From: Chytriomyces cf. hyalinus JEL632
Lineage: Eukaryota; Chytridiomycota; Chytridiomycetes; Chytridiales; Chytriomycetaceae
Reading direction: 5' to 3'
Assembly: GCA_025435555.1 (NCBI GenBank)
Contig: JAIWWG010000006.1
Span: 682,001-746,000 of the forward strand
Length of the DNA stretch: 64,000 nt
The notes under the pieces are model-generated. The model did no database searches. It saw nothing but the letters and a program-made list of their open reading frames with translations, and was not told where the DNA came from. The position numbers and the translations under genes were made by a program. Shown one piece after another: positions 45,187 through 46,320 of the stretch; within the stretch, counting starts at the first letter, position 1, and each line of letters opens with the position of its first letter.

Positions 45187-45225
45187 CATATTCTGGGACA
45201 GAAGGTCACCATGTCCCAGAATATG
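45187..45225. repeat. Perfect hairpin with TGGGACA at the loop
   Basis: Arms CATATTCTGGGACA (45187-45200) and TGTCCCAGAATATG (45212-45225) are perfectly complementary over 14 bases, with an 11-base loop. It marks the left edge of the motif array. Confidence 0.9.
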
Positions 45226-45547
45226 AGACAAATTCAGCCAGAAATATCGCTTGGGTCACCAACTGTCCCAAAGTTTTTTCGCAAAATCGTTTGGGATATT
45301 GTTCTGTCCCAAGAGTTTTTGACCTTGTTGGCCAGAATGGAAAGTACAATGTTTACAATTTTGGTGCGTAAGACCAAAAAGTTCTTTTTTTTCTGGGACA
45401 TTTCATCCTCCCAATCGATTTTGCTGAAAAACTTTGGGACAGTTGTTTACCCGAGCGATATATACACCAATAATCAGTGGAGAACTGGGACACATTTGGG
45501 ACAACCTTTTTACCCAAATGATGGTTTGTCGGGACAAGTTTGGGACA
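45187..45547. repeat. Array of TGGGACA motifs in both orientations
   Basis: Exact TGGGACA occurs at 45194, 45394, 45435, 45486, 45497 and 45541. Its complement TGTCCCA occurs at 45212, 45264 and 45305. Nine exact copies in about 360 bases, plus near matches at 45251, 45291 and 45531. A larger partial repeat (TTGGGACA, then TTTACCC, then GAT) recurs at about 45434 and 45496. No protein coding is evident. Confidence 0.85.
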
Positions 45548-45574
45548 ACAGACAAAACGCTTTTATTGCAAAAT

Positions 45575-46320
45575 TTAGATGAACCTGCGATTTCTGATAC
45601 CCCAACTGGAATTTTTGATTCCAGGGCGTCTGAATTCGCTCTTCACGACACCTGCCGCATCACAAATTTCTCTGCCGAGTTTTCCAGAACCAAATGTATA
45701 ACTTTTGCCAGTCTCTTCCAAGTGCCATGGAAGGTACCTTTTGTGCATTTCACTGAAGTGAAGACCTTCCTTCTCATCGTACTCCGTGGTCGATTCGTAC
45801 CACCTAAAACCCAAATTGTGTTCCCTGGCATACGATTCTGTCGAGTTCTCCAGTCCCCTTGGCCTCGTGAGCCCTTCCTCACAGTACCACTCGTTCCACT
45901 CAATCAAACGCAGCATCAATTGAGGTCCCCACGATTTGACACGACGTTTGAGAGTGAGGTCAATTGGACGATGATGTGGCATCGTGACTACCGACGTGAA
46001 TAACGTTGGGAATGGGACAATGACCAGACGCGCCTTAACAGCAGCATCGCTCTGGTCCATGGGTGGAATGTCGTTGGTCAAAAACACGGTTGCATGCGTG
46101 GGCTTGAACTTGACAATCTCTCCGTACAACTGGCGGGCGACGATATCATCGTTTCCAGTAAGACCTTTCATGAATCCAGAATTGATGGTTTTACCCTTTT
46201 CTGGCTCACTGGCAATGGCAAGACGGCGATTCTTGAGATCCATCATGTCAGGGGATGCCTCAGAACTAGCGCCTTGTTGACCGGTCAGCATCGTTGCCTT
46301 GATGGTAGTGTAATAGTTAT
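45575..46320 (-). pseudogene. C-terminal part of a viral-type SF3 helicase (D5/primase-helicase family), truncated
   Basis: The frame shows the core of superfamily 3 helicases of DNA viruses and related plasmids: RLAIASEPEKGKTINSG, LTGNDDIVARQLYGE, the motif C-like ATVFLTNDIPPMD, the arginine-finger region and VIVPFP. A C-terminal part follows with HFSEMHKRYLPW. At its 5' side the frame runs (NYYTTIKATMLTG) straight into the Copia LTR at 46321, so Walker A and everything before it, including any primase domain, are missing. There are no internal stops in what remains. It is likely a fragment of an integrated virus or virus-like element; which group I cannot say. Confidence 0.75.

Follow-up and report, generated by a model that had tools for sequence, protein, structure and literature searches.

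The TGGGACA array and the truncated helicase gene

The DNA analysed here, referred to as the window, is a stretch of 64,000 nucleotides (positions 682,001 to 746,000 of contig JAIWWG010000006.1) from the 37.8-Mb genome of the fungus Chytriomyces cf. hyalinus JEL632. At 45185-46317, an array of short words in both orientations, which we propose to be a replication origin, adjoins the 3′ part of a gene for a C962R-type primase-helicase. Other copies and loci are referred to by handles such as C51 or C2-A, and positions prefixed with L lie in fetched loci. The features concerned are the following:

45194-45547, no strand: inverted iteron array of nine TGGGACA/TGTCCCA words, a predicted replication origin (word count; fold z of -13.3 for 45185-45560)
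45185-45227, no strand: hairpin at the Fic junction, with perfect 16-base arms (45185-45200 and 45212-45227) and an 11-base loop
45247-45255, plus strand: shared core TCGNNTGGG, here TCGCTTGGG
45287-45295, plus strand: shared core TCGNNTGGG, here TCGTTTGGG
45410-45418, minus strand: shared core TCGNNTGGG, here TCGATTGGG, opposed to the other two cores of the window
45575-46291, minus strand: C-terminal fragment of a C962R-type primase-superfamily 3 (SF3) helicase, with DNA similarity to its paralogues extending to 46317

The nine exact words described in the original prediction are all present at 45194-45547, in the orientation order +---+++++. Among 5000 first-order Markov reshufflings of 45185-45560, none reaches nine TGGGACA words and the maximum is three; the word is present 18 times in the remaining 63,624 bases of the window. 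The left edge of the array is formed by the hairpin, which had been placed at 45187 with 14-base arms. The hairpin is real, but its arms are 16 bases long and start at 45185. It begins, as predicted, where the duplicated Fic fragment stops (45186), and its exact arm word occurs at three loci only. Its loop is inverted relative to those of C122 and C51. A flip-flop telomere was considered as the source of this inversion and set aside, given that template switching within a palindrome can invert a hairpin loop and is the simpler account.

The array is separated by 27 bases from the end of the helicase open reading frame (ORF). This ORF retains Walker B, motif C and the C-terminal domain, and has lost Walker A, D5_N and the AEP primase; it begins past the position of Walker A, no intact copy of which is found in the window gene. 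Pfam returns a sub-threshold DUF5906 match alone (22.1 bits, cut-off 27.6). The ORF aligns, however, with the helicase part of a 1050-residue AEP_C962R/D5_N protein, and is 58% identical to C2:511309 over its length. Paralogue alignment hence upholds the proposed DNA-virus-type SF3 helicase, as a fragment of the C962R type. The proposed cut by a Copia element also holds: DNA similarity to three paralogues ends at 46317, and the Copia long terminal repeat (LTR) begins at 46318. The helicase had further been described as facing the array; the two are indeed adjacent, but it is the 3′ end of the gene, not its start, that points at the words. Since Walker A and the primase are lost, the window copy could not work alone.

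A gene family with arrays of different words

The primase-helicase is a multi-copy family in this genome. AEP_C962R is detected in the C51 paralogue (65.4 bits, cut-off 23) and in that of C210 (50.8 bits); both carry an AEP primase and an SF3 helicase in a single protein, and the predicted fold of C2-A agrees. The family's predicted helicase fold matches the SF3 fold of AsfvPrimPol, and the C-terminal domain, in which pRN1 has its winged helix, aligns structurally with that protein through its last residue, with a sub-threshold Pox_D5 match (19.9 bits, cut-off 21.4). Protein searches, each scoring about 8000 candidates, recover Chytriomyces proteins and distant metagenomic and bacterial ones. 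Given these relatives and the copy number, the helicase does not look like a host housekeeping gene. C106 and C127 were treated as pseudogene fragments rather than full family loci, as similarity stops near residue 708, no inverted array is present and one core is found (in C106).

A search for 7-mers repeated in both orientations within the fetched loci shows that the layout of the window, an array immediately past the 3′ end of the helicase gene, recurs with different words at other copies. CAGTTGA occurs ten times immediately past the stop codon of C51 and seven times in C238, which shares with C51 a block 96-97% identical; ATTGGAC occurs eight times adjoining the gene of C134; C2-B has TGAGAA-type words (TGAGAAC); and C2-A has five copies of AGGGGGGC(C/G)A, a number reached by none of 2000 reshufflings. 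C122 carries TGGGACA words, as in the window. Thus the predicted pairing of array and helicase is found elsewhere, with other words, while TGGGACA itself stands beside a helicase in the window only; as the word may differ between loci, this restriction does not refute the pairing.

A scripted repeat test was applied to eight gene 3′ ends, against a background of 788 half-overlapping windows drawn from the same loci and from the window rather than from the whole genome. Five of the eight pass (the window, C51, C134, C210 and C2-B, the last with a region chosen around its own array), and C2-A, C210b and C234 do not. The C234 copy is without its last residues, so that its region begins at the limit of DNA similarity; in the remaining six cases the region begins at the gene end. 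By comparison, 12 of the 788 background windows pass, six of them within the window's WD40 repeats. The near-copy pairs C238/C51 and C122/window are not independent. A relic at C216, found after the test and left out of the counts, keeps the gene's last 17 residues together with one half of an array.

The arrays have a second motif in common, the core TCGNNTGGG, even though they are built of different words. Two or more cores are present in the window (three), C134 (four), C51, C2-B, C238 and C122 (two each), one in C2-A and C210, and none in C234 and C210b; no background window (0/788) has two. Given that C238 resembles C51 and C122 resembles the window, these six core-rich regions represent four array types. 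In all six arrays the cores oppose each other across the array middle; the fourth core of C134 (L047:3933), which breaks this rule, lies outside its array.

Compared with dinucleotide shuffles, single-stranded DNA of the window array folds with a z of -13.3, that of C51 with -14.8 and that of C134 with -3.9. In a uniform comparison (a 376-base frame with 12 reshufflings per region), the values are -9.8 for the window, -15.5 for C51, -8.7 for C238, -8.3 for C122 and -5.7 for C2-B, as against 0.7 and 0.4 for the gene ends without an array (C234 and C210b) and a minimum of -2.2 among 60 background stretches of the window. Strong folding is thus seen in three of the five array types, weak folding in one and none in one. 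Immediately past the gene, the window, C51 and C2-B have a stem-loop; it is weak in C134 and not seen in C2-A or C210. The AT fraction of the array middles is modestly raised, reaching 0.65 in the window, 0.75 in C51 and 0.70 in C134; this is nothing special, since the solo LTR is AT-rich too (0.70).

These observations also bear on whether the arrays might be host regulatory or chromatin sites, or plain palindromic repeats, that came to lie near helicase genes by chance or through shared history. The array of C122 follows a Fic copy with no helicase present, and C160 has an inverted ATTCTTG array without the core, 4.6 kb away from a fragment of the gene, as such an account would allow. However, arrays of different words occupy the same side of the gene and share a core in inverted orientation. 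In the window, C51 and C2-A, moreover, an ORF or gene fragment situated across the array from the helicase is also directed at the array; since it and the gene's 3′ end both point at the array, the array is not a promoter of these genes. We regard a host-site explanation as improbable.

One further array was noted. At L041:950-1420, a palindromic array of GGTCAAA words with a core-like AAAATCGTTTAGGGTAAC lies near a Fic 3′ end, adjoined by a helicase fragment (1450-1590) that is not a gene 3′ end. In the C160 array mentioned above (L048:5213-5459), ATTCTTG is present nine times, in both orientations, over a span of less than 250 bp.

A predicted origin and its known counterparts

With the family, its domains and fold, and the placement, recurrence, inverted core and folding of the arrays in hand, we consider it somewhat more probable than not that 45185-46317 represents a damaged replication module, made up of a primase-helicase and a 3′ palindromic iteron array that is its predicted origin. 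Several sister genes are flanked at the corresponding position by clusters of other words, so each enzyme would probably begin DNA copying at the cluster beside its gene. In such a module, the C-terminal domain would bind the array words, the SF3 ring would melt the stretch between them and the primase domain would start synthesis there. Word and C-terminal domain would diverge together, so that each copy would fire its own origin only, and the module may once have been a mobile or replicating element. The protein comparisons are compatible with joint change of word and C-terminal domain: identity in the helicase part and the C-terminal domain is 79% and 34% between the window and C2-A, 88% and 72% between C51 and P0002 of C. 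hyalinus, and 40-44% and 22-27% in the other eight pairs.

Replicons with a primase-helicase and an origin of their own are already known from archaea, bacteria and phages. According to an excerpt of PMC4234260, the ORF904 protein of plasmid pRN1 unites an archaeo-eukaryotic-type primase, an SF3 helicase and a C-terminal winged helix, and a stem-loop downstream of the gene is needed for replication. The fungal copies are similar in having both enzymes in one protein and a stem-loop or array downstream. They differ in that the pRN1 origin is described in that excerpt as a stem-loop without iterons, whereas the fungal arrays are rich in repeated words; and pRN1 is a free archaeal plasmid, while the copies described here lie in a fungal genome and have a primase of the asfivirus C962R class. 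In phage P4, the crr (4291-4590), composed of 8-bp repeats in both orientations, lies directly 3′ of the primase-helicase gene alpha (4636-6969, minus strand), 45 bases past its end, and folds with a z of -7.8 in the 376-base frame; a winged helix mediates the binding of the alpha protein to the origin repeats (excerpt of PMC4234260). When P4 was used as a positive control, our repeat script found crr and nothing else. Unlike the fungal family with its AEP domain, P4 is a phage with a Toprim-type bacterial primase, and it has a second repeat cluster (9310-9413), the like of which was not seen in the fetched fungal flanks.

Another close counterpart, asfivirus C962R (AsfvPrimPol), has the same AEP_C962R and D5_N domains and a helicase fold shared through the C-terminus, but identity in the structural alignment is about 18%, and no asfarvirus gene set was seen around the fungal copies. 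The copies could be the remains of giant, asfarvirus-like DNA viruses (one or several) that integrated into the genome, with the arrays as viral repeats or origins later scattered by segmental duplication. The Pfam family and predicted fold of the enzyme are of the asfivirus type, duplicated blocks are common to C51 and C199, and the genome holds a lone stretch resembling a giant-virus (nucleocytoplasmic large DNA virus) major capsid protein at C42:51199-51711 (minus strand; PF04451, 71.1 bits), in an open frame of 429 codons. However, no primase-helicase copy on C42 is among the matches listed. The original prediction proposed a search for capsid or polB genes beside other copies of the hairpin and array, and a domain scan of 16 selected neighbouring ORFs finds no capsid or DNA-polymerase domain; a DNA_pol_B_2 profile search has no match anywhere, its controls being likewise unmatched. 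Scans of viral contigs with four family proteins (P0003, P0004, P0005 and the C51 protein), which reach close relatives only, yield no free relative, and five different words would be hard to square with a single virus. We therefore think a viral source for the copies rather unlikely, if clearly less so than a host-site explanation. For comparison, the giant endogenous viral region of Rhizophagus irregularis has large DNA virus genes, some of them asfarvirus-like, and is reported in an excerpt of PMC10640383 to be without a D5 primase-helicase; in the present genome the primase-helicase is what remains, in many small copies.

Several points weigh against reading the locus as a replication module. 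Arrays occur without a gene at C122 and C232, and gene 3′ ends without an array at C210b and C234. In the 376-base frame, C134 (-2.5) is barely beyond background, and C2-A (-1.2) and C210 (-0.2) show no folding. The core TCGNNTGGG was first noticed in the same arrays that were later used for counting it. Given that the annotated P4 cluster at 9310-9413 was not detected, the script misses some true origins. The co-divergence of word and C-terminal domain is weak evidence, since these domains evolve fast anyway. No boundaries, terminal repeats or target duplications delimit an element at the block shared by C51 and C238, and the duplicated Fic-NACHT block shows that segmental duplication accounts for part of the copying. 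The enzyme itself may come from a giant virus.

More tentatively, and with odds we would place below even, the copies may represent an undescribed eukaryotic family of minimal, plasmid-like PrimPol replicons. Each would combine a C962R-type primase-helicase with a private 3′ iteron origin, iteron and C-terminal domain having co-diversified into at least five specificities. In eukaryotes, such a family would parallel pRN1 and P4, and it might be related, as a small replicon, to the replication enzyme of giant viruses. Among the titles listed by literature searches, with subscription papers and preprints mostly outside their reach, none concerns a fungal or other eukaryotic family of this kind. 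If it exists, a eukaryotic family built on an enzyme of giant-virus type bears on the source of the replication module of large DNA viruses, and its matched pairs of enzyme and origin word would allow direct tests of specificity. Even as viral relics, the copies would be a case of origin-like arrays kept beside their replication genes in a fungal genome.

The proposed element end and neighbouring sequences

The array lies between two pieces of mobile or duplicated DNA:

46318-50780, minus strand: Copia retrotransposon truncating the helicase gene, with LTRs at 46318-46510 and 50588-50780 and pol at 46517-50539
44855-45186, plus strand: duplicated Fic gene fragment in two pieces (44855-44960 and 45153-45186) with a solo LTR between them
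44961-45152, no strand: solo LTR of 192 bp with a 5-bp target duplication, CCTTC; a similar stretch occurs in C234 (L043:2311-2501)
38698-39363, plus strand: Fic/DOC gene, from which the duplicated fragment derives by homology

The two Fic pieces correspond to 38737-38842 and 38842-38875, respectively. No target duplication of the Copia element was found in the 10-base flanks of 46318-50780.

The array and hairpin had been taken for the terminus of an element. This is not supported: C122 has a TGGGACA word on the outer side of the hairpin, at L040:4677, and therefore the hairpin is not a terminus; the arm word, as noted, is confined to three loci; and no terminal inverted repeats were found at the block shared by C51 and C238 or elsewhere in the 10-kb stretches L045 and L050, the significant inverted repeats of both copies being their 3′ arrays. 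The same data speak to a related proposal, in which a transposase would bind the array as the subterminal region at one end of a DNA transposon or Polinton-like element, with the helicase as cargo. Dense inverted short words by an edge do resemble subterminal repeats, and the array adjoins the junction at 45186. Yet this account is at odds with the C122 word past the hairpin and with the edges of the C51/C238 block, which have neither terminal inverted repeat nor target duplication. The 5′ side of the gene in these two copies also has no inverted word cluster, the five CAGTTGA words there in C238 being all on one strand. It has little probability in our estimation, on a par with host sites.

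Two candidate partners of the module were rejected. Beside C210, a 567-residue ORF (L044:1313-3016), tyrosine recombinase-like by eye, has no Pfam match and several genome copies; its repeated unit stops at L044:3801, array similarity starts at 3827, and the C33 and C201 copies have no array, as expected of a separate element. A Fanzor/IS607 partner was suggested by a TnpB-like zinc ribbon near C51 and a resolvase near C134, which are not common to the copies examined. The zinc ribbon-like Fanzor/TnpB fragments, recognized by eye at L045:6320-6968 and L049:4511-4733, lie beside two primase-helicase copies, and the serine resolvase ORF (L047:639-1211; PF00239, 43 bits) about 3 kb from the C134 array.

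Beyond the array, C51, C238 and C200 contain part or all of one convergent orphan ORF (269 residues in C238). This acidic ORF, at L050:5460-6269, converges on the CAGTTGA array, and parts of it recur in C51 and C200; protein searches recover three Chytriomyces proteins as its relatives, including HDU81_009392 of C. hyalinus. A gene block comprising an 843-residue ORF, Fic, NACHT/WD40 genes and the array junction, at 34546-45200 of the window, has an inverted duplicate at C51:1-9000. The window also has a DDE_3 transposase ORF at 60956-62041 (77.2 bits), and a GlcNAc glycosyltransferase ORF (L045:7972-9435; PF11397, 283.8 bits) lies about 2.5 kb past the C51 primase-helicase.
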